From: Acidimicrobiia bacterium
Lineage (GTDB): Bacteria > Actinomycetota > Acidimicrobiia > IMCC26256
Direction: 5' to 3'
Length of the DNA: 11,836 bases
Assembly: GCA_023262065.1 (NCBI GenBank)
Contig: JALRDW010000300.1
Coordinates: forward strand, 1 to 11,836
Program-made: the position numbers and the translations under genes
The notes under the pieces: model-generated
Database searches by the model: none
Seen by the model: only the letters and a program-made list of their open reading frames with translations
Told to the model about the DNA's origin: nothing
Shown: piece by piece, positions 721 to 11,836 of the stretch
How positions within the stretch are numbered: the first letter of the stretch is position 1
Layout: each line of letters opens with the position of its first letter

Positions 721-1304
721 TATGCTTGAACAGATTGAATGAATAAATCACGGAATTGACGGCATTGAGCCGCAGTCAATGCAAAGATTCCTGTACCGCC
801 TTTTTGGAACTGTAACCAGTAAAAATCAACAGTATTAAAGTTTTGGCGCATTGCCCATTCAGAATTACCCACTTCAATCACGATGAGACCATCTTCAGTT
901 AAGTAATCTGGCGCTTGAGCTAACATTTTACGAACCAAATCTAAGCCATCCTGACCTGCCGCCAATGCCAATTCTGGCTCATGGTGGAATTCTTCAGGTA
1001 AATCTGCCATGTCTTCAGCATCCACATAAGGTGGGTTCGACACGATAAGATCGTATTGATTTTCAGCAGGAATTTTGGAAAACAAGTCAGACTCAAGTAA
1101 AGCCACTTGATACTGTTTGTCGTGGTGTTCTGAGTTAATTTGAGCCACTTCTAAAGCTTCTTTAGAAATATCTGTTGCATCTACTTCGGCATCTGGGTAC
1201 GCATAAGCCAGAGCAATCGCGATACAACCTGAGCCCGTACACATATCTAAAATACGTTGTGGCGTTTTTGGATTCGGGTTTTCTGGCAAGTTGTTGACTG
1301 CCTC
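720..1304 (-). CDS. prmB: Ribosomal protein L3 glutamine methyltransferase, C-terminal 194 residues, cut by a join
   Basis: PrmB transfers a methyl group from S-adenosylmethionine to a glutamine of ribosomal protein uL3. Visible motifs, counted from the first retained residue, are the SAM-binding segment ILDMCTGSGCIAIALAYAYP (18-37), the acidic VDATDIS strand after it, and the NPPY catalytic motif (90-93) that holds the target glutamine amide. The C-terminus FIQSVQA ends at a TAA. The reading is normal back to EAVNN, equivalent to the ELINN of E. coli PrmB. Directly before it the residues become Arg-Arg and then high-GC antisense sequence with no family resemblance. About 130-145 N-terminal residues of a usual 310-340 are missing. 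It sits immediately upstream of aroC, the normal synteny. The truncation coincides with an abrupt GC change, so it is most likely an assembly join and not a natural deletion. Confidence 0.93.
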   Translation of the reverse strand, partial: EAVNNLPENPNPKTPQRILDMCTGSGCIAIALAYAYPDAEVDATDISKEALEVAQINSEHHDKQYQVALLESDLFSKIPAENQYDLIVSNPPYVDAEDMADLPEEFHHEPELALAAGQDGLDLVRKMLAQAPDYLTEDGLIVIEVGNSEWAMRQNFNTVDFYWLQFQKGGTGIFALTAAQCRQFRDLFIQSVQA

Positions 1305-1310
1305 ACGGCG
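1300..1310. other. Join between Acinetobacter-like and actinobacterial DNA
   Basis: On the left, minus-strand prmB is recognisable up to the codon at 1302-1304. On the right, plus-strand oxidoreductase sequence (TAEDGPVPSPGEGEAVVR) is recognisable from 1305. Both genes are broken at the same point, on opposite strands, and GC content jumps from roughly 45% to over 70%. No insertion sequence, tRNA, integrase or target-site duplication is visible at the boundary. Confidence 0.9.
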
Positions 1311-2261
1311 GAGGACGGGCCGGTGCCGAGCCCGGGCGAGGGCGAGGCCGTCGTCCGCCTCGCCTACCTCTCGATCGATCCCACGAACCGGGTCTGGATG
1401 CGCGAGGAGGACTCGTACCTCCCGGCGATCCGGATCGGGGACGTCGTGCGGTGCGCCGGTCTCGGCGTCGTCACCGAGTCCCGGAATCCTGCGTACACGC
1501 CGGGGGACCTCGTGCTCGGGCTCCTCGGTTGGCAGGAGTACGCCGTGGTCGACTCGGGGGAGCGCAGCGCGCAGGTGATCCCGCCGGGCCTCGCCCCGAC
1601 CGACGTCCTGTCGATCTACGGGTCGACCGGGCTCACCGCGTGGTTCGGGGTGCACGACGTCGCCCGGGTGGTCGAGGGTGACGTCTTCGTCGTGTCCGGC
1701 GCGGCGGGCGGGGTCGGCTCGGTCGCCGGGCAGCTCGCCGCTATCGCCGGTGCCCGCGTCATCGGGATCGCAGGGTCCGCCGAGAAGTGCCGGTGGGTGA
1801 CCGAGGACCTCGGGTTCGACGCCTGCATCGACTATCGACGCGAGGACGTGCCCGCCCGTCTCGCCGAGCTGTGCCCCGACGGCATCGACGTCTACTTCGA
1901 CAACGTCGGCGGTGCGATCCTCGATGCCGCGCTCGCGAACCTGGCGATCGGGGCGCGCGTCGCCCTGTGCGGCGCGATCTCGTCGTACACGGCGGCCGAG
2001 CCTCCGGCGGTGCGCAACACCTTCGAGCTCGTGAGCCGACGGGCTCGGATGGAGGGGTTCCTGCTGCTCGACTACGTGGACCGGTTCCCCGAGGCCGTCA
2101 TGGGGCTGCTGCCGCTCGTGCTCGAAGGACGTGTCCGTCACGCGGTCGAGGTCGTCGAGGGGCTCGAACGGGCCCCGGAGACCCTGAACCGGCTCTTCAC
2201 CGGCGACCACACCGGCAAGTTGCTCCTCCGGGTCTCCGACGCGGCGGACCGACCCGAGTGA
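1305..2261 (+). CDS. NADP-dependent oxidoreductase, CurA/PTGR medium-chain family, N-terminus missing
   Basis: This is a zinc-independent medium-chain reductase of the COG2130 group (prostaglandin/curcumin reductase type), which reduces the double bond of alpha,beta-unsaturated ketones or aldehydes with NADPH. Evidence, numbered from the first retained residue: the catalytic-domain segment GEGEAVVRLAYLSIDPTNR (11-29); the nucleotide-binding loop SGAAGGVGSVAGQLA (131-145); GSAEKCRWVTEDLGFDACIDY (157-177), where the lysine typically contacts the NADP 2'-phosphate; and YFDNVGG (197-203). It lacks zinc ligands. The 318 visible residues compare with about 335-345 for the family, so about 20 residues and the start codon were lost at the join. 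The few residues readable before 1305 come from the foreign DNA and should be ignored. The true substrate cannot be told from sequence. A small membrane gene follows on the same strand but seems to have its own promoter. Confidence 0.9.
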   Translation, partial: TAEDGPVPSPGEGEAVVRLAYLSIDPTNRVWMREEDSYLPAIRIGDVVRCAGLGVVTESRNPAYTPGDLVLGLLGWQEYAVVDSGERSAQVIPPGLAPTDVLSIYGSTGLTAWFGVHDVARVVEGDVFVVSGAAGGVGSVAGQLAAIAGARVIGIAGSAEKCRWVTEDLGFDACIDYRREDVPARLAELCPDGIDVYFDNVGGAILDAALANLAIGARVALCGAISSYTAAEPPAVRNTFELVSRRARMEGFLLLDYVDRFPEAVMGLLPLVLEGRVRHAVEVVEGLERAPETLNRLFTGDHTGKLLLRVSDAADRPE

Positions 2262-2269
2262 CCGGGCGG

Positions 2270-2291
2270 CGCACCGGTAACGTCCGGTGCG
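2270..2291. promoter_or_regulatory. Perfect 8-bp inverted repeat enclosing a -10-like element
   Basis: CGCACCGG (2270-2277) and CCGGTGCG (2284-2291) are exact inverted copies around the 6-base loop TAACGT, 8 bases after the oxidoreductase stop. The loop itself fits TANNNT and lies 34 bases before the GTG of the next gene. It could be a short intrinsic terminator (no T tract is visible) or an operator over the promoter of the small membrane gene. Confidence 0.45.
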
Positions 2292-2317
2292 TCCGCCGAC
2301 CCCGAGGGGAGACCACG

Positions 2318-2584
2318 GTGAACTTCGGAGCGCCCGAACTGCTGGTGATCGTGTTCCCGCTCATCGTCGTGGGCATCGCGTTCGCGACCTGGGTGATCGT
2401 GGATGTGCGGCGCTACCCGGTCGACGCGTTCGAGCGGGCCTCGGTGCACCGCACCGCATGGATCGCCGCCCCGGGCGCGGCCATCGTGGCGAGCGTGCTG
2501 TTCAACGTGGTCGGCGTGGCGGCCGCCCTCATCATCGCCCTCATCTGGCGCACGGCCATCCGACCGCAGGTCGCCGGGGCCTGA
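2318..2584 (+). CDS. Small two-helix membrane protein, 88 residues, unknown function
   Basis: I do not recognise the family. The GTG start at 2318 has a good purine-rich site (GAGGGGAGA, about 2304-2312) 5 bases upstream, making it one of the few genes here with a clear Shine-Dalgarno sequence. The protein has two hydrophobic helices, at about residues 8-28 (LLVIVFPLIVVGIAFATWVI) and 50-77 (APGAAIVASVLFNVVGVAAA and following). Between them lies a charged loop with DVRRYPVDAFERASVHRTAW, and the C-terminus is short and basic. By the positive-inside rule both Arg-rich parts probably face the cytoplasm, but two helices cannot satisfy this simply, so topology is uncertain. Codon use is like its neighbours and supports a real gene. 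It lies 56 bases after the oxidoreductase and converges on the hydrolase gene. No function should be assigned. Confidence 0.75.
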   Translation: MNFGAPELLVIVFPLIVVGIAFATWVIVDVRRYPVDAFERASVHRTAWIAAPGAAIVASVLFNVVGVAAALIIALIWRTAIRPQVAGA

Positions 2585-2606
2585 CGCGACGCCGCCGCCC
2601 GACCCG

Positions 2607-2621
2607 GCCCCGGACCGGGGC
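2607..2621. terminator. Possible bidirectional hairpin between convergent genes
   Basis: GCCCCGG-A-CCGGGGC is a perfect 7-bp palindrome around one base, realistically 5 pairs with a GGACC loop. It is placed in the 74-base gap between the membrane-protein stop (2584) and the hydrolase stop (2659). There is no T tract, as is common for GC-rich actinobacteria, so terminator function is inferred from position. Confidence 0.4.
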
Positions 2622-2658
2622 GGGACGAGCGGCGGGGAGCCGTCCGGATCGGCGCCGG

Positions 2659-3552
2659 TCAGGTTGCGGCGTGGGCGAGGTCCATGTGCCACCACAGGAA
2701 GTTGGTGGTCATGTCGTGGATCTCGGTCCGGTGGTTGTACGGCACGTGACCCTCACCGGTGTAGGTCTTGAGATGGGCGTCGATCCCGACCGCCCGCGCG
2801 GTGGAGACGGTGTTGACCGCCCACGCGTACGGGACGAGCGGATCGTTCGTGCCGTGCCAGTTCAGGAACGGCGAGTCGCCCGGATCGGGTCCACCGATGA
2901 TGTTGGCGCCGGACAGGGACAGGGCCGCCCGGACCGCGTTCGACTGGCCGGGGTCCGACGGGCCCTGGGGCTCGTCGGGGTTGAGCGCGACCTGGATCGC
3001 CGTGATCGCACCGGCCGAGGTGCCACCGATCGCGACCCGGGTCGGATCGACGCCGTAGGTCGCGGCGTTGGCCTTCACCCAGCGGACCGCGGCCTGGGCG
3101 TCGTGCATCGCATCCCGGATCGCGTCCACGCACTGCGTGCCCGGGGCCGAGGCCGAGCAGCCGGCCGCGGTGAGGCGGTAGCTGATCGAGAAGTTCACGA
3201 AGCCCTTCTTGGCGAACACGGTCGCCTCGTCCACGATCTCGCCCGAGGTCTTGTTGCCGCCACGGAACGAGCCGCCGTGCACCCAGATGATCGCCGGCCG
3301 CGAGGTCACCGAGTCCCCGGTGGGCTCGTAGACGTCGAGGTGCAGGACGTCGGTCTGGCCGTCCTGATCGATGGCGCTGCCGGAGCCGTACGGGATGTCC
3401 GAGGTGAGGGTGACGTCGGTGAACACCGCGTCCCGGTACCGCATCGGTGCGGCCCCCTGGGGTACGAGGTACGGGGTGCACGCGCCCGCGAGGAGCGTGA
3501 TGCCCGCGGTGAGGGCGAGGAGCCCGATCCGATGCCTGGTCGGGTGCTTCAT
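2659..3552 (-). CDS. Secreted alpha/beta-hydrolase (esterase/lipase-like), probable lipoprotein
   Basis: This 297-residue alpha/beta-hydrolase fold enzyme resembles carboxylesterase/lipase-like hydrolases with an HGG oxyanion hole. The N-terminus is a signal peptide: basic residues 1-8, a hydrophobic core 9-21, then LLAGAC. Cys25 could be lipidated, although Ala at -3 makes the lipobox imperfect. The catalytic set is visible: HGGS (92-95) for the oxyanion hole, GGTSAGA (176-182; IGGTSAGAI in context) with nucleophile Ser179, Asp237 in HGTNDP, and His269 in GEGHVP. Cys132 and Cys141 could form a disulfide outside the membrane. The ATG was chosen because the signal peptide starts there, GGAGG lies about 10 bases upstream, and its ATGA overlaps the stop of the DUF3817 gene. 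An upstream in-frame extension would be Arg/His-rich shadow sequence. It probably acts on an ester outside the cytoplasmic membrane; the substrate is unknown. Confidence 0.88.
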   Translation of the reverse strand: MKHPTRHRIGLLALTAGITLLAGACTPYLVPQGAAPMRYRDAVFTDVTLTSDIPYGSGSAIDQDGQTDVLHLDVYEPTGDSVTSRPAIIWVHGGSFRGGNKTSGEIVDEATVFAKKGFVNFSISYRLTAAGCSASAPGTQCVDAIRDAMHDAQAAVRWVKANAATYGVDPTRVAIGGTSAGAITAIQVALNPDEPQGPSDPGQSNAVRAALSLSGANIIGGPDPGDSPFLNWHGTNDPLVPYAWAVNTVSTARAVGIDAHLKTYTGEGHVPYNHRTEIHDMTTNFLWWHMDLAHAAT

Positions 3553-3881
3553 GCTGAGCCGCCTCCGGTGCGGTAGGGGACGCCGCCCCGTGTGATGCGC
3601 CACCACACGAGGATGCCGCCGATGGGGCCGGTCAGGACCGCGACCGTCGTGAACCCCCATGACCACCGGATGTCGGGGGTGATCATGAGGGTCATCGCGA
3701 CGAACGCGAGCCAGATGAGGCCGTGGAAGAAGCCGGCGATCGCCTTCCCGGGAACGCTCGGCTGGATGATCCAGAAGTAGAAGAGGACGCAGTACGTGAT
3801 CGTCTCGGCGAGTGCGACCACCTCGAGTGCCTTGGCCTTGCGCTCGAGTTCGGTGGTGGTCTCGTCGACGTAGTCGGGCAC
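3549..3881 (-). CDS. DUF3817-like integral membrane protein, 110 residues
   Basis: The segment ALEVVALAETITYCVLFYFW, a central FFHGLIWLAFVAMTLMI helix and the later WSWGFTTVAVLTGPIGGILV helix match the three-helix pattern of DUF3817 proteins, which are common in actinobacteria. In those proteins a conserved Glu sits in helix 1, a His-Gly opens helix 2 and an aromatic-rich turn precedes helix 3. Here these are Glu26, His53-Gly54 and Trp73-Trp75. Helices lie near residues 18-39, 47-68 and 76-95. Function is unknown for the whole family. The GTG at 3881-3879 was chosen because TACGCT lies 8 bases upstream, fitting a leaderless start, and because the frame further upstream lacks conserved sequence. 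Its TGA overlaps the ATG of the hydrolase (ATGA), so the two are translationally coupled. Whether the two proteins work together is not known. Confidence 0.82.
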   Translation of the reverse strand: MPDYVDETTTELERKAKALEVVALAETITYCVLFYFWIIQPSVPGKAIAGFFHGLIWLAFVAMTLMITPDIRWSWGFTTVAVLTGPIGGILVWWRITRGGVPYRTGGGSA

Positions 3882-3889
3882 GGTCGGAG

Positions 3890-3895
3890 AGCGTA
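3890..3895 (-). promoter_or_regulatory. -10 element for a leaderless DUF3817 transcript
   Basis: TACGCT on the minus strand ends 8 bases before the GTG start at 3881. It fits the TANNNT pattern seen before other starts in this window, and there is no Shine-Dalgarno sequence. No clear -35 element is visible. Confidence 0.45.
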
Positions 3896-3928
3896 GGCGC
3901 ACCCGGTGGGTCCTCGGCCGTCGGGTCC

Positions 3929-3961
3929 GGCCGGGACGTCCGGTCCCGGCCCGGGGACCGG
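3929..3961. repeat. Two overlapping, mutually exclusive inverted repeats in a divergent promoter region
   Basis: GGCCGGGAC (3929-3937) pairs with GTCCCGGCC (3943-3951). CCGGTCCC (3940-3947) pairs with GGGACCGG (3954-3961). The two share bases 3943-3947, so only one can form in RNA. They lie in the 129-base gap between the divergent DUF3817 and ABC ATPase genes, upstream of the predicted start on either side, so a DNA-binding site is more plausible than an RNA switch. Chance pairing in such GC-rich DNA is possible. Confidence 0.35.
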
Positions 3962-3997
3962 GCACGAACCGGGTCGCCCCGGACCCGATCGGTCTGC

Positions 3998-4003
3998 GAG
4001 CAT
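3998..4003 (+). promoter_or_regulatory. -10-like element for a leaderless ABC ATPase transcript
   Basis: GAGCAT ends 7 bases before the GTG at 4011. It keeps the A at position 2 and the T at position 6 of TANNNT but has G at position 1, so it is a weaker match than the others. No Shine-Dalgarno sequence is present. Confidence 0.35.
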
Positions 4004-4010
4004 CGGATCC

Positions 4011-4784
4011 GTGGAACCGGTCCTCGTCGCCCGCGGTCTCGTGAAGGAGTACCGGCGCACCCGTGCCGTCGACGGCGTCGACCTCACGGTCGGCGCGGGG
4101 GAGCGGGTCGCGCTGCTCGGGCCGAACGGGGCCGGCAAGACCACCACGCTGCTCATGGTCCTCGGTGCCATCTCGCCCGACGCCGGCGAGGTCGAGGTCT
4201 GCGGGGTGAGCCAACGCCGGAGCCGGAGCGCCGCGGCCGAGCACATCGGGTTCGCAGCCGGGTACCTCCCCCTCGCGGGGGAGCTCCGGGTCCACGAGTA
4301 CCTCACGATGTACGGACGGATCTACGGGATCCCGGATCCCGGGCCCGCGATCGCCGCCGGCCTCGCCCGCTTCCGGATCGAGCACCTCGCGGAGGCGATG
4401 GGACCCCAGCTGTCCTCGGGGCAGCGGACCCTCGTCGGCATCGTGCGCGCGTGCCTGCACCGACCGCGTCTGCTCGTGCTCGACGAGCCGACCGCATCGC
4501 TCGACCCCGATGTCGCGGCTCGCGTGCGCGATGGCATCCTCGAGTTGTGCGACGCCGAGGGGACCGCCCTGCTCGTCACGAGCCACGACATGCGCGAGGT
4601 CGAGCGTCTCAGCGAGCGGGTGCTGTTCCTCGCCCAGGGACGGATCGTCGCCGACGGCCGGCCCGAAGAGATCGCAGCCCGCTTCGACCGCGAGGACCTC
4701 GAGGGCGTGTTCCTGCACCTCGCCGAGGACCGTCTCCCCGAGCGGGAGCCGCCCGGTGGTCAGCAGACGGACTTCCACCTGTGA
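4011..4784 (+). CDS. ABC-2 type exporter, ATP-binding protein
   Basis: This 257-residue nucleotide-binding subunit energises the permease encoded next. Motifs: Walker A GPNGAGKT (37-44), signature LSSGQ (134-138), Walker B LLVLDEP (154-160) with catalytic Glu159, D-loop SLDPD (163-167) and H-loop His192 in TSHD. The overall order matches the DrrA/NodI/CcmA-like group that pairs with ABC-2 permeases. One oddity is the Q-loop region, which reads HIGFAAGYLPLAGELRVHEY with no glutamine where most relatives have one. The GTG at 4011 was preferred to an earlier in-frame ATG (3906) because the extra 35 residues are low-complexity Gly/Pro/Arg, the family starts directly with a short strand such as VEPVLVARGLVKEYR, and a -10-like GAGCAT lies 7 bases upstream. 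The last four bases overlap the permease start (GTGA), so expression is coupled. Substrate unknown. Confidence 0.92.
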   Translation: MEPVLVARGLVKEYRRTRAVDGVDLTVGAGERVALLGPNGAGKTTTLLMVLGAISPDAGEVEVCGVSQRRSRSAAAEHIGFAAGYLPLAGELRVHEYLTMYGRIYGIPDPGPAIAAGLARFRIEHLAEAMGPQLSSGQRTLVGIVRACLHRPRLLVLDEPTASLDPDVAARVRDGILELCDAEGTALLVTSHDMREVERLSERVLFLAQGRIVADGRPEEIAARFDREDLEGVFLHLAEDRLPEREPPGGQQTDFHL

Positions 4785-5629
4785 GCGGGACCGCCGACGC
4801 GCTCGATCCGACCCGGCCACTGCCGGCCGGGCCCCGACGGTCGTGGCTGCGCGTGCGCGCGATCGCGCGCCGCAACGCGTACGTGCTGCTCCGCGAGCCG
4901 CACCGGCTCTTCGACGTGACGCTGTGGCCGCTCGTCGACGTGCTCATGTTCGGCGCGCTGGCCGCCTTCGTCGGGCGTGGTGGGGCCGACGGAGGTCAGC
5001 AGGCGGCGGGATACCTGCTCGCGGGCATCATCCTCTGGCACGTGGTGTACCAGTCGCAGATCGCGGTCAGCACCGGCTTCCTCGAGGAGACCTGGACCCG
5101 CAACCTGCTCAACCTCATGGTGACACCGATCCGGGAGACCGAGTACGTCGGCGGCGTGGTGCTCTTCGGACTCGCGAAGCTGGTCATGGGGGTCGGGCTC
5201 ATGGCGGTCGGGGCCTGGGTGTTCTTCTCGTTCGACGTCGGTGGCATCGGCCTCGCGCTCGTCCCGATCGCCGCGGTGCTCCTCGTCGTCGGCTGGGCGA
5301 TCTCGTTGCTCGTCATCGCCTTCGTGCTGCGGTTCGGCCATGGGGCGGAGGCGCTCGCGTGGGGTGTGATGTTCGTGCTCATGCCACTGTCCGGCATCTT
5401 CTACCCGATCGATGCGCTGCCCCGGTTCGTCCGCCCGATCGCGTTGGCCCTCCCCACGACCTACGCGTTCTCCGCGCTGCGCGGCGTGGTCGACGGTGAT
5501 CCGCTCGACTGGGGCCTCGTCGGGATCGGCGCGATCGGGGCGGTGGTGCTCGGTGCGTTCGCGACCTGGTTCCTCGTCCGCATGTTGCGCCTGTTCCGTC
5601 GGCGTGGCTACGTCACGCGGTACTCCTGA
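4781..5629 (+). CDS. ABC-2 type exporter, permease
   Basis: A 282-residue transmembrane subunit of an ABC-2 exporter. Six hydrophobic segments are visible at about residues 46-64, 75-93, 124-150, 157-183, 192-210 and 246-267. The segment MPLSGIFYPIDALP (201-214) before the last extracellular loop is characteristic of the NodJ/DrrB-like permease group, as is the amphipathic N-terminal stretch before helix 1 (RAIARRNAYVLLREPHRLFD). Start: GTG at 4781 within the ATPase stop (GTGA overlap), which makes the two-gene operon certain and implies coupled translation. Related pairs export drugs, polysaccharides or lipids, but nothing here identifies the cargo; there is no neighbouring biosynthetic or resistance gene. 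The gene ends 69 bases before the convergent SRPBCC gene, with a strong hairpin between. Confidence 0.92.
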   Translation: MSGTADALDPTRPLPAGPRRSWLRVRAIARRNAYVLLREPHRLFDVTLWPLVDVLMFGALAAFVGRGGADGGQQAAGYLLAGIILWHVVYQSQIAVSTGFLEETWTRNLLNLMVTPIRETEYVGGVVLFGLAKLVMGVGLMAVGAWVFFSFDVGGIGLALVPIAAVLLVVGWAISLLVIAFVLRFGHGAEALAWGVMFVLMPLSGIFYPIDALPRFVRPIALALPTTYAFSALRGVVDGDPLDWGLVGIGAIGAVVLGAFATWFLVRMLRLFRRRGYVTRYS

Positions 5630-5635
5630 GCGCGA

Positions 5636-5668
5636 CGACGGCGCCGAGCCCGGGGGCCGGCGCCGTCG
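5636..5668. terminator. Strong bidirectional terminator-like hairpin
   Basis: An exact 11-bp inverted repeat, CGACGGCGCCG (5636-5646) and CGGCGCCGTCG (5658-5668), encloses an 11-base loop. It lies 6 bases after the permease stop and 30 bases from the stop of the convergent SRPBCC gene. A second, imperfect hairpin (about 5674-5696) follows. There is no T tract, but the position between convergent stops supports a shared terminator. Confidence 0.6.
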
Positions 5669-5698
5669 CAGTGCTCCCGCACCGATGGTGGGGGCGGG

Positions 5699-6088
5699 TC
5701 AGCCCTCGACGTGGGCCTTGAGCTGCTCGAGGGCCCCCGCGTAGACGCCGCCGATGGTCTCGGCGAGGTCGCCCGGCTCCATCTCGAGCGCCCAGGTCGC
5801 CTTCGACCCCTCGCCCTCGGCGACGACGGACACGGTCGCGAGCCAGGTGGTGATGCCCATGGCCGAGCCGTCGACCGTGTACGAGTACGTGCGCCCCGCG
5901 TCGTCGCGGGAGACCTCGTCCTCCTCGGCGGTCATGCCGCCCGCGAGTCCGACGGTGCGGTGCGTGCCATCGACGACGCAGGACTCGACGCCGTTCATCC
6001 AGGTGTCGAGTCCGCCGAACTGGCCGAGCACGGCCCAGACCTCGTCGGGGGTGCGGGCGATGCTGATGTCGTGCGAGACGCGGGCCAC
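5699..6088 (-). CDS. SRPBCC-fold (START/polyketide cyclase-like) protein, 129 residues
   Basis: The protein has the layout of small SRPBCC ligand-binding proteins. It has an N-terminal strand VSHDISIARTPDEVWAVLGQ, where PxEVWxxL is the usual start of the first helix, followed by FGGLDTWMNGVESCVV. Beta strands follow, with SYTVDGSAMGITTWLATVSV and TWALEMEPGD, and then a long C-terminal helix DLAETIGGVYAGALEQLKAHVE. The family binds hydrophobic ligands in a cavity, and members range from cyclases to stress proteins; the ligand here cannot be read from sequence. The GTG at 6088-6086 is supported by AGAGGAG (6094-6100) 5 bases upstream. A TACCCT -10 element further upstream (6131-6136) would give a leader of about 36 bases. 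It is transcribed divergently from the ABC1 kinase gene. Length is normal for a single-domain member. Confidence 0.85.
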   Translation of the reverse strand: MARVSHDISIARTPDEVWAVLGQFGGLDTWMNGVESCVVDGTHRTVGLAGGMTAEEDEVSRDDAGRTYSYTVDGSAMGITTWLATVSVVAEGEGSKATWALEMEPGDLAETIGGVYAGALEQLKAHVEG

Positions 6089-6130
6089 GGGTGCTCCTCT
6101 GGTGGTTCGTGGTGTGTGCCGGACGGCGGC

Positions 6131-6136
6131 AGGGTA
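6131..6136 (-). promoter_or_regulatory. -10 element for the SRPBCC gene
   Basis: TACCCT on the minus strand, 42 bases before the GTG at 6088. Initiation about 7 bases downstream would leave a short leader carrying the AGAGGAG ribosome site, in contrast to the leaderless starts elsewhere in the window. Confidence 0.4.
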
Positions 6137-6196
6137 GCCGCCGGTGGCGGCGTGGGGTGCCGGTCGGGGCCGATCGCGCGGCGCGCTCCGGACCCG

Positions 6197-6202
6197 TAGC
6201 CT
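6197..6202 (+). promoter_or_regulatory. -10 element for a leaderless ABC1 kinase transcript
   Basis: TAGCCT ends 6 bases before the ATG at 6209 and no Shine-Dalgarno sequence is present. The spacing favours ATG 6209 over the in-frame GTG at 6203, which would lie directly against the -10 element. Confidence 0.55.
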
Positions 6203-6208
6203 GTGGCG

Positions 6209-7495
6209 ATGGATCCGTCCGCCGAGGTCGTCCCGACCGCGGGGCCACGTGTGCGCGCCGTGGTCCGGGTCGTGGTGGCGAACGGGTTCGGCTCGCTCGC
6301 CGACCTGCTCCACCGGGACCGCACCCGGCGGCTCGCACGGCGCACCCGGCGGATGCTGGAGGCCCTCGGGCCGACCTTCATCAAGCTCGGTCAGGTGCTC
6401 TCGACCCGTCCCGACATCCTGCCCGACGCGGTCGCATCCGAACTCGCCCTCCTCCAGGACCACGCGCCGCTCGTCCGCTTCGCCGAGGTCCGGGCGGTCG
6501 TCGAGGCCGAGCTGGGTGCGTCGATCGAGGCCCGGTACGCAGAGTTCGACCCGGTGCCGCTCGCCGCGGCCTCGATCGGGCAGGTGCACGCGGCGGAGCT
6601 GCCCGACGGCACCGCCGTGGTGGTGAAGGTCCGACGACCGGCGGTGCGTCGCACCATCGAGGTGGACCTGCGCATCCTCGATCGGACCGCCCGGATCCTC
6701 GCCCGGATCTCGAGGATCGCCCGCCGCTACGACGTGGTGGGCCTCGCCGAGCGATTCGCGACCACCTTGCGGCGGGAGTGCGACTACATCCAGGAGGGCC
6801 ACAACGCCGAGGCGATCGCGGCGGCCCTCGCCGGAGTGCCGCACGTCGTCGTGCCCGGGATCGATTGGCCCCGGACCACCGACGGGGTGCTCACCGAGGT
6901 CCGGGTGGCCGGGGCGAAGGTCGACGACGTCGTGACGCTCGAGCGGATGGGGGTCGATCGCGCCGCGGTCGCGGTCACCTTCGCCGACGCATACCTCACG
7001 ATGGTGTTCGGCAACGGGTTCTTCCACGCAGACCCCCACCCGGGCAACGTGTTCGTCGACGAGGATGCCGTCGTCTCCTTCGTGGACTTCGGCATGACGG
7101 GACAGGTCGATCCGGTCACCGAGCGGTCGCTCGGCGGGGTGCTGCTCGCGATCGTCGCCGCCGACCGGGTGCGGATGGCCGACGCGCTCCTCGGGCTCGG
7201 GATGGCGACCCGGACGGTCGACCGGGCGCGCCTCGAGCACGATCTCGGACACCTCCTCGACCGATACGGTCACCGGTCGCTCGAGGAGATGCCGGTCGCC
7301 GAGGTGCTCGGCGAGGTGATGCACATCGTGCGGCGGCACCGCCTCACGCTCCCGCCCGATCTGGCGCTGCTCGTCAAGACCGTGATGATGTGCGAGGGGG
7401 TGGCCCTGCGGCTCGACCCCGGCTTCCTGCTCGTGCCGCGGTTGCTGCCCTTCGCGGCCCGCATCGCCGGGGGCGATGAGGTGCCGGATCCCTGA
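6209..7495 (+). CDS. ABC1/AarF/UbiB family atypical protein kinase-like protein
   Basis: A 428-residue member of the ABC1 (AarF/UbiB/COQ8) family. The signature elements appear in order: the family-specific KxGQ motif in FIKLGQVLSTRPDILP (Lys59-Gln62); the alanine-rich loop AAASIGQVHAAELPDG (119-134) that replaces the protein-kinase glycine loop; the VVVKV lysine strand (Lys140); ECDYIQEGHNAEA (190-202), which holds the ExxN-like metal/nucleotide residues; the catalytic-loop equivalent FFHADPHPGN (271-280); and VDFG (292-295), equivalent to DFG. UbiB and COQ8 support ubiquinone synthesis through ATPase activity. In actinobacteria, which make menaquinone, the role is unclear, and lipid or isoprenoid handling is only a guess. 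Unlike many UbiB proteins, the C-terminus ends with only a weakly hydrophobic segment (about 402-420), so membrane anchoring is uncertain. Start ATG 6209 is set by the -10 element just upstream. Confidence 0.93.
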   Translation: MDPSAEVVPTAGPRVRAVVRVVVANGFGSLADLLHRDRTRRLARRTRRMLEALGPTFIKLGQVLSTRPDILPDAVASELALLQDHAPLVRFAEVRAVVEAELGASIEARYAEFDPVPLAAASIGQVHAAELPDGTAVVVKVRRPAVRRTIEVDLRILDRTARILARISRIARRYDVVGLAERFATTLRRECDYIQEGHNAEAIAAALAGVPHVVVPGIDWPRTTDGVLTEVRVAGAKVDDVVTLERMGVDRAAVAVTFADAYLTMVFGNGFFHADPHPGNVFVDEDAVVSFVDFGMTGQVDPVTERSLGGVLLAIVAADRVRMADALLGLGMATRTVDRARLEHDLGHLLDRYGHRSLEEMPVAEVLGEVMHIVRRHRLTLPPDLALLVKTVMMCEGVALRLDPGFLLVPRLLPFAARIAGGDEVPDP

Positions 7496-7534
7496 ACCCC
7501 GCCGGGGGATTGGGGTCCCGGCCCGCCCGGGTGC

Positions 7535-7540
7535 GAGGAT
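7535..7540 (+). promoter_or_regulatory. -10-like element before the small membrane gene
   Basis: GAGGAT ends 8 bases before the ATG at 7549. It is a GANNNT variant like that before the ABC ATPase. The same bases contain GAGG and could also serve as a weak ribosome site at a rather long distance, so the assignment is uncertain. Confidence 0.3.
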
Positions 7541-7548
7541 GCCCGGCC

Positions 7549-7941
7549 ATGGACAACCGTCAGCGCGCCATCTACCTCTCCCGGGTCCGGGTCGGCATCG
7601 GCCTCACCATGCTCGCGATGCCGCGCACGGTGGGTCGTGCGCTGGCCGGTCGCGGTGCCGACTCGCCGGCGGCGGCCACGCTGTGCCGAGGGATGGGTGG
7701 GCGCGACGCGGTGCTCGGAGCGGGTGCGGCGATCGCGCTCGCCGAGCGCGACACGGGCCACAACTGGTTGTCCATGACGGCGTTGGCCGACGGCATCGAT
7801 GCCGCGGTGCTGCTGCTCACGCCCCGCCTCCCGCTGCGGGCCCGCCTCACCGGCGTGGTCGCCGCGGCCCTCGCCGTCGCCCAGCTCGCGGTGGCCAAGG
7901 AACTTGCCGAGGGCGCGGGCGTCACCGTCGACCAGCGCTGA
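7549..7941 (+). CDS. Small membrane protein, 130 residues, DUF4267-like
   Basis: The pattern is a short hydrophobic start with an AMPRTVGRALAGRG loop, then ATLCRGMGGRDAVLGAGAAI, WLSMTALADGIDAAVLLL and a final ARLTGVVAAALAVAQLAVAK helix. It resembles four-helix DUF4267-type membrane proteins, in which a conserved GxRD follows helix 1 and a D-xx-D pair sits in helix 3. Here these are Gly51-Arg52-Asp53, and Asp81 with Asp84. Helices lie at about 14-24, 53-65, 76-91 and 98-117. The family match is from memory of the pattern and is moderate. No function is known. The ATG at 7549 is 53 bases after the ABC1 kinase stop on the same strand, so cotranscription is possible, though a -10-like GAGGAT precedes it. 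Codon use is typical of the host. Confidence 0.7.
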   Translation: MDNRQRAIYLSRVRVGIGLTMLAMPRTVGRALAGRGADSPAAATLCRGMGGRDAVLGAGAAIALAERDTGHNWLSMTALADGIDAAVLLLTPRLPLRARLTGVVAAALAVAQLAVAKELAEGAGVTVDQR

Positions 7942-7946
7942 TCGGA

Positions 7947-7969
7947 GGTCGGCGCCCGGTGCGGCGACC
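7947..7969. terminator. Imperfect hairpin between convergent stops
   Basis: GGTCGGCG (7947-7954) and CGGCGACC (7962-7969) pair over 5 bases, one mismatch and 2 more bases around a 7-base loop. They fill almost all of the 31-base gap between the small membrane gene and the acyltransferase gene, which end facing each other. Confidence 0.4.
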
Positions 7970-7972
7970 CGC

Positions 7973-9376
7973 TCAGTCCCGGCGGGCGGGAACCGCGACC
8001 GGAAGCGCCACGATCCGGTCCACCTCGGCGACGACCGCGTCGCGTCCGGCCCGTGCTGCGGCGAGCCCCTCGGGCCGCCGGGCCCAACCCGCCGCTCGGA
8101 CCGATCGGCGGAGCTCGTCGACCGTGGCGGTCCAGGCGATCGCGGCGAGGCCGGTCACCGGACCCGCGACGAGCACGGCCACCGCGCCGCGCGGGCCCCA
8201 GCGGCGCCTCGCCGCCCAGGCCTCGACCGCGTAGGTGATCGGCACGGTGACGACCGCGCTCCCGCCCTTGGCCGTGGCCTTCCACGCCGGGTGCGCCGTG
8301 CGCCGCCCCAGTCCGTAGGAGACGGCGGCCGGCAGCGCGTGGAGGGCGTACCCGGCGACACCGAGCGGAGCGAGCCCCAGGCTCAGGGCGCCGAGCCCGA
8401 GGATGCGCCGGCGGGCGTGGGCCGCGTCGAGGTGCACCACGTCGGCGGGGGTGTGGGTCCCGAGGGCCTCGAGCCGCTCGCGCAGGTCGTCGACCCGGGC
8501 CTCGAGTCCCTTGAAGGCGGGGCCCGAGTCGCCGCCGTGGTCGGCCAGCCGGGTGGCGAGCTCCCGCTGGAGTTCCACGACGCGGGCGTACGGCTCGGCG
8601 GCGTCGGGGTCCTCGGTGCGCACGACGACCTCGGCCGCCGCGTGGGTGACCTCTGCGGACCGCCACGAGGCGTGGGTCGCCGCGACGGTGAGCAGCGCCG
8701 CGCCGATGGCCTCGGTGAGGGCGCGCACGGCGACGGCGTCCTCGTCGCCGGCGGCGCCGAGGAACGGGACGACCTCGACCGGTTCGCCGATCTGCAGGGC
8801 GACCTGACCCCGGAACCGCCCCCGCTCCTCGTAGGTGATGCCGAGCGGCACGATGACGACGTCGTCGACCCGGCCGCCGGCGACGGCGCTGAGTGCGATG
8901 CGGGCGGTCCCGGTCTTCAACGGGAGGGTGAGCCCCGGGTGGTCGTCGACCCCGCCCTCGGGGAACACCGCGACGCGTCCGCCCGCCGCCAGCACCCCGT
9001 GGCACTGTGCGAACGCCGCGGCGTTCGTCGCCGCGTCGAACGACTCCCCGTGGACGTCGTTCCGTCGCGCGACGGGCACGCACATCGCGTACCGGAGCAG
9101 CCACGAGAGCCCCCGGATCCGCCACATCGACTTCGCGACGAGGAACCGGGGGAAGAACCCGAGGCATCCGATGAGCACCACCGGATCGGCGAGCCCGTTC
9201 GAGTGGTTGCACACGAGGATCGTCGGCCGATCGGCCGGGATGTGGTGGCGGCCCGTGACGTCGACCTGGCGCATGAACACGCGTACGACGACCCGGCACA
9301 GCCAGATGAGCGAGCGGGCCCGACCGTTCGTCGGCGCGCCGGCCGTGTTCCGCGTCGTCGTTCCCCGCCCCCGCAT
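7973..9376 (-). CDS. PlsC-type glycerophospholipid acyltransferase with long C-terminal extension
   Basis: The 467-residue protein begins with a PlsC/LPLAT domain. Block I is CNHSNGLADPVVL (56-68), giving catalytic His58 with HX5D spacing to Asp64. This is the NHxNxxxDP form found in glycerol-3-phosphate/DHAP acyltransferase-like members and not the common HX4D form. Block III is VFPEGG (137-142), followed by LKTGTARIAL, and block IV is VPLGITYEERGRFRG (176-190). The family transfers acyl chains to a glycerol-phosphate backbone at the membrane face. Residues from about 220 to 330 are charged and helical with coiled-coil-like stretches. Residues about 330-430 contain several hydrophobic segments, including GALSLGLAPLGVAGYALHAL and AVAVLVAGPVTGLAAIAW, that probably anchor it. 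The ATG at 9376 was chosen because TACCGT lies 7 bases upstream; an in-frame earlier start (9478) would place that element inside the gene. It lies 43 bases after two hotdog genes on the same strand. Confidence 0.88.
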   Translation of the reverse strand: MRGRGTTTRNTAGAPTNGRARSLIWLCRVVVRVFMRQVDVTGRHHIPADRPTILVCNHSNGLADPVVLIGCLGFFPRFLVAKSMWRIRGLSWLLRYAMCVPVARRNDVHGESFDAATNAAAFAQCHGVLAAGGRVAVFPEGGVDDHPGLTLPLKTGTARIALSAVAGGRVDDVVIVPLGITYEERGRFRGQVALQIGEPVEVVPFLGAAGDEDAVAVRALTEAIGAALLTVAATHASWRSAEVTHAAAEVVVRTEDPDAAEPYARVVELQRELATRLADHGGDSGPAFKGLEARVDDLRERLEALGTHTPADVVHLDAAHARRRILGLGALSLGLAPLGVAGYALHALPAAVSYGLGRRTAHPAWKATAKGGSAVVTVPITYAVEAWAARRRWGPRGAVAVLVAGPVTGLAAIAWTATVDELRRSVRAAGWARRPEGLAAARAGRDAVVAEVDRIVALPVAVPARRD

Positions 9377-9383
9377 GGCCACG

Positions 9384-9389
9384 ACGGTA
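9384..9389 (-). promoter_or_regulatory. -10 element for a leaderless acyltransferase transcript
   Basis: TACCGT on the minus strand ends 7 bases before the ATG at 9376, with no Shine-Dalgarno sequence between. It suggests the acyltransferase has its own promoter even though it follows the hotdog operon closely. Confidence 0.5.
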
Positions 9390-9419
9390 CCGGACGGGTG
9401 CCGGCCCGGCGACGGGGGG

Positions 9420-10253
9420 TCAGGGTCGCCGGACGGTGACGATGGCCTCGGCCACCGCACGATCCCCGGCACCCGCATCGCGGACGGTCACCGCCACGAC
9501 CGCACCGTCCGGGCGCTCGCCGAGCACCCGGCCCGTCCCCACCACCGGTCCGGAGCGGGCCGGACGCAGGAAGTGCAGCACCGTGTCCCCCGAGTACCAC
9601 CGACCCCCGAGTCGGCGGCGCGCCGCGTGCTCGGCGGTCTCGGCCACGAGCACCGCGGTCGCGCCGCCGTGGAGGATGCCCCAGGGATTGCGCAGGTCGT
9701 CGACCAGGTCGAGGCGGACGTCCCCGGGGGCGGGACCGTCACGGGTCAGGCGGAAGAAGCCGTCGAGGGAACGCGGGCCGTCGGCGGGTGGGTCGATCGG
9801 CGCGAGTCGGAACGGGCGCGGATGGTCGGGTGGGCCGCCCTCCGGTACGAGCAGCGACGCGGTCAGCGAGCCCGTGGCCAACGGGGCGCCGTCAGCACCG
9901 TGATCGACCGCACGGACCCGCGTGACCGCCGCGGTCCGACCGACCCGGAGCACCTCGGCATCGATCCCGATCGGGCCGACGACGTGCGTGCGCAGGCGCG
10001 CGACGAGGAGGTCGGTCGAGACGATCCAGCGTGGGAGGGACGCCAGCCCGCTCGCGATCCCGGCCGCGATGTCGGCCACCGCGGTGAGGATCCCCGAGTG
10101 GACCACGCCGTGGACGTCCCGCGTGCCGTCGTGGGCCGGGCAGTGCCCGGTGATGCGGATCGGGCCACCGGCCCCGGTGGTCTCGTGGAGGTCGATGCCG
10201 AGGTGGCGGGCGACGGCGCGTCCGGCGTCCGGGTCGTCGAACGCCGGCCTCAT
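9420..10253 (-). CDS. Double hotdog-fold protein, PaaI-type acyl-CoA thioesterase-like (second of two)
   Basis: A 277-residue protein with two hotdog domains. Domain 1 (about 30-137) contains HGVVHSGILTAVADIAAGIA, with His52-Ser-Gly and the acidic Asp61 in the position of the PaaI-type catalytic residue, then the paired strands VVGPIGIDAEVLRVGRTAAV. Domain 2 (about 180-277) contains NPWGILHGGATAVLVAETAE, with LHGG (194-197) and Glu205 at the equivalent site, then GPVVGTGRVLGERPDGAVVAV. Both domains keep plausible catalytic residues. Enzymes of this fold hydrolyse acyl-CoA thioesters; some are dehydratases or non-enzymatic binders. The ATG overlaps the stop of the preceding gene (ATGA), so the two are coupled and their products may form a mixed assembly. 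The PlsC-type acyltransferase follows after 43 bases, which suggests an acyl-chain supply or salvage role (inference). Confidence 0.82.
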   Translation of the reverse strand: MRPAFDDPDAGRAVARHLGIDLHETTGAGGPIRITGHCPAHDGTRDVHGVVHSGILTAVADIAAGIASGLASLPRWIVSTDLLVARLRTHVVGPIGIDAEVLRVGRTAAVTRVRAVDHGADGAPLATGSLTASLLVPEGGPPDHPRPFRLAPIDPPADGPRSLDGFFRLTRDGPAPGDVRLDLVDDLRNPWGILHGGATAVLVAETAEHAARRRLGGRWYSGDTVLHFLRPARSGPVVGTGRVLGERPDGAVVAVTVRDAGAGDRAVAEAIVTVRRP

Positions 10254-11098
10254 CGCTCGGCCCCGGGTGTCCCGACGCGCACGGCGACCGCGCGGGCCAG
10301 CGCGGTGCGGCGATCGTCGCCTCCCTCGTCCCGCACCTCGACCTCGAACTGGGCCCAGTCCGACCCGGTCCGCAGCACGCGGGCTTCGGCCCGCACCGGC
10401 CCGTGCTTCGCGAGGGCGAGGTAGTCGATCGCGAGGTCGACGCACACGGTGGGCTCGCCGATGATCCGGTCGGCGGCGGTCGTCGCGGCCCCGGCGACGA
10501 GCATCGCCACCACGCCACCCTGCATCGCGCCGAGGGTGTTCACGACGAACGGGCTCATCGGAGCCCGGATCGAATCGGGACCGACCTCGATCCCGATCGC
10601 GGCCGCTAGGTCGGCGAGGTGGGCGTCGTCGAGTGGTCGGAACTCGTGCCGCACCGGCGCGTCGAGCGGTGCCATGACGGGGTTGGTGTCGCGCCTCGGG
10701 AGGATCGCGAACGTCATCGTCGCCGTCCCCACGGGCCGGCCTGCGTCGACGATGAGGTCGACCGCGAGCACCACCGTGGTCCGGCCGCGCCGGACCACGC
10801 GTCCCTCCGCGGTGACGGCCCCGGCCCGCACGGGTGCGAGGAGGTGGAGCGTGAGGCCGGAGGTCGCGATCCAATCGGGGCGGGCCGCGAGTGCGGCGAG
10901 GCCGCCGCCGGTGGCGTCAACGAGCGTGGCGAGTGCACCCGTGGTGACCTCACCCGTCCCGCCGAGCAGGTGCGGACCGACCGAGAGGTGCGCCGTGCTC
11001 GTGAGGTCGGGCCGGTGCTCGACCCCGTACCCGAGCGAGCGCAGCACGTGGTGCGCCGGCGGGTAGCTCACGCCGATCGTGGCGTCGGCGTCTGCCAT
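10250..11098 (-). CDS. Double hotdog-fold protein, thioesterase-like (first of two)
   Basis: A 282-residue protein again made of two hotdog domains. Domain 1 (about 35-134) contains GTGEVTTGALATLVDATGGG with acidic Asp61, then LLAPVRAGAVTAEGRVVRRG. Domain 2 (about 176-275) contains NTLGAMQGGVVAMLVAGAAT, where the usual acidic residue is replaced by an alanine or glycine, so this half is probably non-catalytic, then KHGPVRAEARVLRTGSDWAQ. The first half keeps Asp61 but has TTGAL in place of HGG. The start ATG at 11098 lies 9 bases after the ppk2 stop, with no Shine-Dalgarno sequence, and the stop overlaps the next start by ATGA. The three genes therefore probably share a transcript. Sequence similarity to the second hotdog protein is low, so these are old paralogues at best. 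Substrate unknown. Confidence 0.8.
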   Translation of the reverse strand: MADADATIGVSYPPAHHVLRSLGYGVEHRPDLTSTAHLSVGPHLLGGTGEVTTGALATLVDATGGGLAALAARPDWIATSGLTLHLLAPVRAGAVTAEGRVVRRGRTTVVLAVDLIVDAGRPVGTATMTFAILPRRDTNPVMAPLDAPVRHEFRPLDDAHLADLAAAIGIEVGPDSIRAPMSPFVVNTLGAMQGGVVAMLVAGAATTAADRIIGEPTVCVDLAIDYLALAKHGPVRAEARVLRTGSDWAQFEVEVRDEGGDDRRTALARAVAVRVGTPGAER

Positions 11099-11107
11099 CG
11101 CTCGCGA

Positions 11108-11767
11108 TCAGTCGGTGACGAGCGTGGCCGCCACGTCCGGGACGTAGCGCTGCGTCGACGTGTCGGGGCGCACGTACCCGCCGTCGGCCTGCCGCTTCGG
11201 CAGTGTGACCTTCGGCTCGAGGGTGTCGTGGTACGGGACCGAGGCGAGGAGGTGGCTGATGCAGTTGATGCGGGCGCGCCGTTTGTCGTCGGCCTCGACC
11301 ACCCACCAGGGGCTGTCGGGGGTGTCGGTGTGGACGAACATCGTGTCCTTGGCCCGTGAGTAGTCGACCCAGTGGGCCCGAGAGGCGACGTCGACCGGGC
11401 TGAGCTTCCAACGCTTGAGCGGATCGTGGATCCGGGCCTCGAAGCGGCGCTCCTGCTCGTCGTCGCTCACCGAGAACCAGTACTTGATGAGGATGATGCC
11501 GTCCTCGATGAGCATGTGCTCGAAGAGGGGGGTCTGTCGCAGGAACAACTGGTACTGCTCGGGGGAGCAGAACCCGAAGACGTGCTCGACGCCGGCCCGG
11601 TTGTACCAGGACCGGTCGAACAGGACGATCTCGCCGTTGGTCGGGAGATGCTCGACGTAGCGCTGGAAGTACCACTGTCCTGCTTCTTGCGCAGATGGTG
11701 CGGAAAGTGCGATCACACGTGCTCCACGCGGGTTCAGGTGTTCCATGAACCGCTTGATCGTTCCGCC
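11108..11767 (-). CDS. ppk2: Polyphosphate kinase 2, 5' end broken
   Basis: PPK2 enzymes transfer phosphate between polyphosphate and nucleoside phosphates. Seen in the protein: [32 protein letters not shown], the Walker B-like [20 protein letters not shown] with its Asp, the lid segment [20 protein letters not shown], and [20 protein letters not shown] near the end. This is class I-like by overall pattern. The N-terminal part, including the Walker A segment usually written GRDAAGKGG, is absent. At that point the frame runs into an ilvD fragment ([10 protein letters not shown]), joined at the shared GGTI. No start codon can be given: the Met at 11746 is an internal residue of the family. Codons of the first 23 residues from that Met end in A or T 14 times, unlike the rest, so this part may come from another genome. 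It is followed after 9 bases by the hotdog genes. Confidence 0.88.
11756..11767. other. In-frame join of ilvD and ppk2 at a shared GGTI-coding segment
   Basis: The 12 bases encoding Gly-Gly-Thr-Ile belong equally to the DHAD motif [10 protein letters not shown] and to the PPK2 motif GKGGTIKRF. The exact crossover cannot be placed within them. A join at sequence shared by two unrelated families is typical of assembly errors or template switching during amplification. Confidence 0.85.
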
Positions 11768-11836
11768 TTCCGCCGCCTCGGGCGAGACGTGTCCGATCGA
11801 AAGGCCCGAGGTGCCGCCGGAGAAGCGGCCGTCGGT
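11756..11836 (-). CDS. ilvD: Dihydroxy-acid dehydratase fragment, 27 residues (foreign to its neighbour)
   Basis: The last 81 bases read [20 protein letters not shown] followed by AAEGGTI. This is the highly conserved C-terminal block of dihydroxy-acid dehydratase, the branched-chain amino acid enzyme that turns 2,3-dihydroxyacids into 2-keto acids. The Ser of TDGRFSG is the proposed catalytic base. Normal proteins continue with GLVEDGD or similar after GGTI; here the continuation is [11 protein letters not shown] from PPK2. The fragment is GC-rich with mainly G/C-ending codons. It enters from outside the window, and whether a fuller ilvD lies beyond cannot be seen. Confidence 0.85.

Follow-up and report, generated by a model that had tools for sequence, protein, structure and literature searches.

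Two foreign gene pieces wrongly joined to the ends of a bacterial chromosomal contig in a draft genome

The window analysed here comprises contig C146 (11,836 bases) of the draft genome G000 from end to end, and therefore begins and stops where the contig does. The draft consists of 300 contigs with 2,102,117 bases in all, a completeness of 79.28% and a contamination estimate of 1.28%. At the left end, on the reverse strand, lies the 5' part of aroC (chorismate synthase; 3-704), which is cut by the contig end and matches PF01264 (E 9.3e-88) over positions 1-217 of the 327 in the profile. It is followed on the same strand by the 3' part of prmB (ribosomal protein L3 glutamine methyltransferase; 720-1306), cut at a junction and retaining 194 C-terminal residues with methyltransferase-family Pfam matches. 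On the forward strand a CurA-type reductase gene of the host chromosome (1296-2261; PF16884 and PF00107) lacks its N-terminus, and the 11-base stretch GACTGCCTCAC (1296-1306, forward strand), compatible with both parents, contains the join. From 1307 to 11755 the contig is a segment of host chromosome, mostly collinear by tblastx against loci L017 and L018 with two genomes of the same genus, G003 and G002. A host polyphosphate kinase 2 gene (PPK2; 11108-11776, reverse strand), likewise without its N-terminus, leads into a second foreign end (11768-11836, reverse strand) with a dihydroxy-acid dehydratase C-terminal motif in frame with PPK2.

The left part of the contig was compared with 175 Acinetobacter genomes, 174 of which matched positions 1-1306. 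The best DNA identity was 88%, to A. schindleri; four A. baumannii records reached about 80%, and a near-identical source was not found among the 175 genomes. In CM018764.1, the sole annotated record of the four, aroC and prmB are annotated beneath the match. DNA similarity to five Acinetobacter loci stops at 1301-1307. The preliminary description, made from the letters of the window, had reported an Acinetobacter aroC/prmB block abruptly fused to other DNA, with a shift of composition within a few bases. The genus-level assignment holds, and the shift is equally clear, GC being 0.458 in 1-1306 vs 0.728 in the remainder of C146, with a trinucleotide change-point at 1305 and 20 positions in 1292-1312 within 2 log units.

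An aroC of the draft's own was found on another contig, C189, where it spans 1-325 of the 327 profile positions. An 8-kb A. schindleri query against G000 gave a long match to C146 alone, the one other match being of 36 bases; a wider Acinetobacter contamination of the draft is thus not demonstrated, and the lack of a second long match in G000 counts to some degree against an artefact as the origin of the junction. A single short read could not span the 1.3 kb of the Acinetobacter part, and DNA of that genus must therefore have been assembled in its own right at this place, a further point that an artefact has to accommodate. Plain bin contamination, in which an Acinetobacter contig was wrongly binned with another bacterium, would agree with the occurrence of Acinetobacter DNA in G000, but both DNAs lie on one contig and the query found little else; the fused contig refutes it as a full explanation and leaves it with next to no probability.

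The preliminary description had placed the cut in both genes at about 1304/1305. Both the reductase and prmB are indeed truncated, but the exact point cannot be placed inside 1296-1306, because this stretch fits both parents. On the Acinetobacter side, ten distinct loci were compared at 1296-1306. All 11 letters were present in four of them (L029, L030, L031 and L033), which are four of the five nearest loci and which differ from C146 immediately past 1306; the fifth of the nearest loci, L032, had 8 of 11, and L010, L011, L012, L015 and L016 had 6 or 7. On the host side, similarity to the same-genus loci begins at 1296-1299 (tblastx), and six relatives were compared at 1296-1304. Eight of the nine letters were found in L003 and L004, seven in G002 and G003 as one continuous run, six in L009 and five in L007, the poor agreement of the last two being a point against an artefact. 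Judged from the relatives of both, the parents appear to have had 7 to 11 bases in common at the join, which suggests a microhomology join. With equal base frequencies, and assuming host letters as in the relatives, two parents joined at random would share at least 7 bases with a probability of about 4e-4 and at least 11 with one of about 2e-6. The earlier statement that no repeat is present thus stands for repeats of at least 20 bases, of which there are none in 800-1800 of C146, but it passes over these 7-11 bases that the parents seem to share. Among the proteins scanned there was neither a transposase or integrase nor a phage structural family, in agreement with the absence of a mobile-element signature noted before. 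The junction was sought in other genomes as well: neither the reductase loci of G002, G003 and G035 nor L003 and L004 contained a match to 1-1295.

Most of the right part of C146 follows the native gene order of the genus. Blocks matched in both G002 and G003 (the latter a single contig of 2.46 Mb) run from the reductase through a DUF3817 gene, an ABC transporter pair, a polyketide-cyclase-like gene and an acyltransferase gene to the first thioesterase gene; in G003 the collinearity reaches PPK2, while the stretch of G002 compared stops earlier, at its contig end. The two parts of C146 match different organisms, each in its usual gene order (prmB-aroC on the left, as noted in the preliminary description, and genus collinearity on the right). 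Two intervals, at about 2.3-3.5 kb and 6.2-7.5 kb, were unmatched by tblastx in the loci of G002 and G003. The first holds an alpha/beta hydrolase gene (2662-3558, reverse strand), whose place in G002 is taken, with the same neighbours on either side, by an unrelated gene (L018 5375-7201; amidohydrolase-like as judged by eye); the second holds an ABC1-type kinase gene (6203-7495, forward strand) that has no counterpart at the same place in either genome. The GC content of the region is about 55% in G002 and G003 vs 73% in the right part of C146, with gene order largely conserved.

Compared with the 354-residue copies in L017 and L018, the reductase of C146 is shorter at its N-terminus by 25-36 residues, the figure varying with the start codon chosen. 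In G002 and G003, where the reductase is intact (354 residues), it is preceded by dioxygenase-like, SDR, pirin and thioesterase genes, all named by eye. The last three of these neighbours were located in G000 on another contig, C90, on which the genes for the thioesterase (at 78% identity) and for pirin (at 73%) adjoin and are followed by one extra gene and then by the SDR gene, that is, in the order of the genus save for the extra gene. C90 ends within the SDR gene at a point equivalent to coordinate 3373 of G002, with the junction of C146 at 4330, about 960 bases apart. The dioxygenase-like neighbour of the reductase was not found by search of the draft G000. Its absence is compatible with a gap between C90 and C146 and equally with a replacement, and it is the sole result that leaves transfer some room. 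When the reductase protein was searched against plasmids, 495 records were obtained, every one below 60% identity and from mixed genera, a spread that singles out no host for the right part, which the preliminary description had called actinobacterial.

Recent horizontal transfer would have Acinetobacter aroC-prmB joined to the host by microhomology-mediated illegitimate recombination, with removal of the reductase start and of the dioxygenase-like gene. Microhomology joins happen in living cells too, and the neighbour of the reductase is missing from the draft as if it had been replaced, an outcome that a real replacement would also predict and that to this extent tells against an artefact. 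However, in a draft of 79% completeness the missing gene may just as well have fallen into a 1-kb assembly gap separating C90 from C146. The left part is, moreover, ordinary Acinetobacter sequence of low GC, and both of the joined genes are broken. Transfer also has to contend with a second foreign fragment at the other end of C146 and with the frequency of odd contig ends in G000, both described below. We consider it very unlikely, and its narrowest form, a very recent illegitimate transfer from Acinetobacter through a microhomology of at most 11 bases that replaced the reductase start and its neighbour, to be slightly less probable again.

At the right end of C146 the PPK2 frame stays open through to the end of the contig. 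The first 27 residues of this frame match the C-terminal domain of dihydroxy-acid dehydratase (PF24877, E 2.5e-11), and 11 of the 14 PDB matches listed to E 1 are dihydroxy-acid dehydratase sequences at E <1e-5. From residue 21 the same frame is PPK2 (PF03976, E 1.4e-86; 288-residue orthologue at L017 2336-3202), and similarity to G003 also begins there, at 11776. GGTI, the four residues at 11756-11767, is compatible with either protein and stands at the same place in the PPK2 of G003; the second break falls between 11756 and 11776, at or beside GGTI. The right end of C146 is a second, independent and chimeric join. Fragments of two other genes, one from Acinetobacter, were wrongly attached to the ends of C146 in sequencing or assembly; the contig is otherwise ordinary bacterial chromosome and should not be taken as evidence of gene transfer.

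Other contig ends of the draft were sampled from C146 and another 60 contigs, of which 20 had been picked by hand. Of these 61 contigs 57 could be read, and they supplied 57 left ends and 48 right ends. With a third-order Markov model and 150-base pieces, 29 of the 105 ends scored within the bottom 1% of interior pieces (pieces of 200 and 300 bases put 28 and 25 there), and in a segment test 26 of the 105 lay above the highest of 187 interior controls. In a common setting, ends below the 1% interior level numbered 23 of 105 in G000, 2 of 38 in G002 and 0 of 27 in G031 (Fisher p 6e-4 for 23/105 vs the 2/65 of G002 and G031, which are two control assemblies only). No end in any of the three assemblies scored under the lowest interior piece, which speaks against the artefact reading. 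An RNA scan, covering 10 of the 57 readable contigs, identified the right end of C153 as 16S rRNA and the right ends of C108 and C38 as tRNA genes; some ends of odd composition are thus not foreign, three of the 26 being rRNA or tRNA, and for most of the remaining odd ends composition is the sole support.

The clearest foreign ends outside C146 are the right end of C173, the left end of C163 and the left end of C90. The first (L090 7025-8312; 1.29 kb, GC 0.48) is foreign-looking and encodes a serine-hydroxymethyltransferase-type protein without its N-terminus, starting as soon as a long reading frame of the host has ended. The second (L088 1-1272; 1.27 kb, GC 0.50), also foreign-looking, carries a glycosyltransferase gene. 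Plasmid searches with these two ends gave no match. The foreign-looking ends are alike in length, at about 1.29 kb in C173, about 1.27 kb in C163 and 1.31 kb at the left of C146. On C90 (L049 1-275) a C-terminal fragment of MnmE adjoins the stop codon of an LLM-type oxidoreductase gene (type assigned by eye), and similarity to G002 and G003 starts only at 276-286, where the MnmE fragment ends. The left end of C143, which we take to resemble a tricarboxylate-binding protein, had no Pfam match, and neither had the left end of C153.

The SDR, pirin and thioesterase neighbours of the reductase, as predicted from the same-genus genomes, lie on another contig, C90; the host has its own aroC on C189; and C146 carries a second chimeric end in a draft with many odd ends. 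On these grounds the junction is almost certainly an artefact, a chimera formed in vitro or in silico. The preference for misassembly or contamination over transfer in the preliminary description was therefore well placed, although the microhomology and the second join had been overlooked.

Within the artefact reading, an error of the assembler alone would mean that paths of the host and of Acinetobacter were linked in a graph or scaffolding step without any chimeric molecule. The fragmentation of the draft into 300 contigs favours such an error, but usual de Bruijn word lengths exceed about 11 bases, and the stretch shared at the join is at most about 11 bases long. Since the shared stretch is shorter than these words, the join is more easily traced to a bridging read. 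Misassembly is named among the sources of chimeric contigs in metagenome-assembled genomes in PMC8201837, a point in favour of the assembler; even so, assembler error alone seems to us rather unlikely, and a chimeric molecule is the probable origin.

A chimeric molecule could have arisen if a host strand and a strand of Acinetobacter, from the same sample or from the reagents, had 7-11 bases in common and, while the DNA was being amplified or the library prepared, one of them acted as primer on the other. The resulting chimeric read would have lain at a host contig end, past the limit of true coverage, from which the assembler may then have walked 1.3 kb into Acinetobacter. Inside well-covered contigs chimeric reads would be outvoted, whereas at contig ends the assembler would follow them; from the pattern of ends we infer that chimeric reads were kept there. 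The host letters at the break, which are taken from the relatives, and the laboratory or assembly step responsible are likewise presumed.

Taken at face value, C146 would imply that a distant bacterium had acquired genes from Acinetobacter. At an estimated contamination of 1.28%, G000 nevertheless seems to hold many short foreign contig ends, which would hardly be visible to marker-gene checks. Given their number, the contig ends of G000 should be checked or trimmed before any analysis of transfer or gene fusion.

Chimeras formed in multiple displacement amplification (MDA) offer one comparison. In PMC1855051 priming at their junctions is reported to have started at complementary stretches of 2-21 bases in more than 70% of cases. 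As in C146, DNA there is joined in mid-gene, over a short stretch compatible with both parents. In contrast, 85% of the chimeras described in that paper are inversions within one genome, while the partners in C146 come from different organisms, in a sample that may or may not have been amplified by MDA. The chimeric contigs of metagenome-assembled genomes treated in the GUNC paper (PMC8201837) resemble C146 in that one contig holds DNA of several lineages. The same paper describes misassemblies as relatively rare, whereas odd contig ends are frequent in G000.
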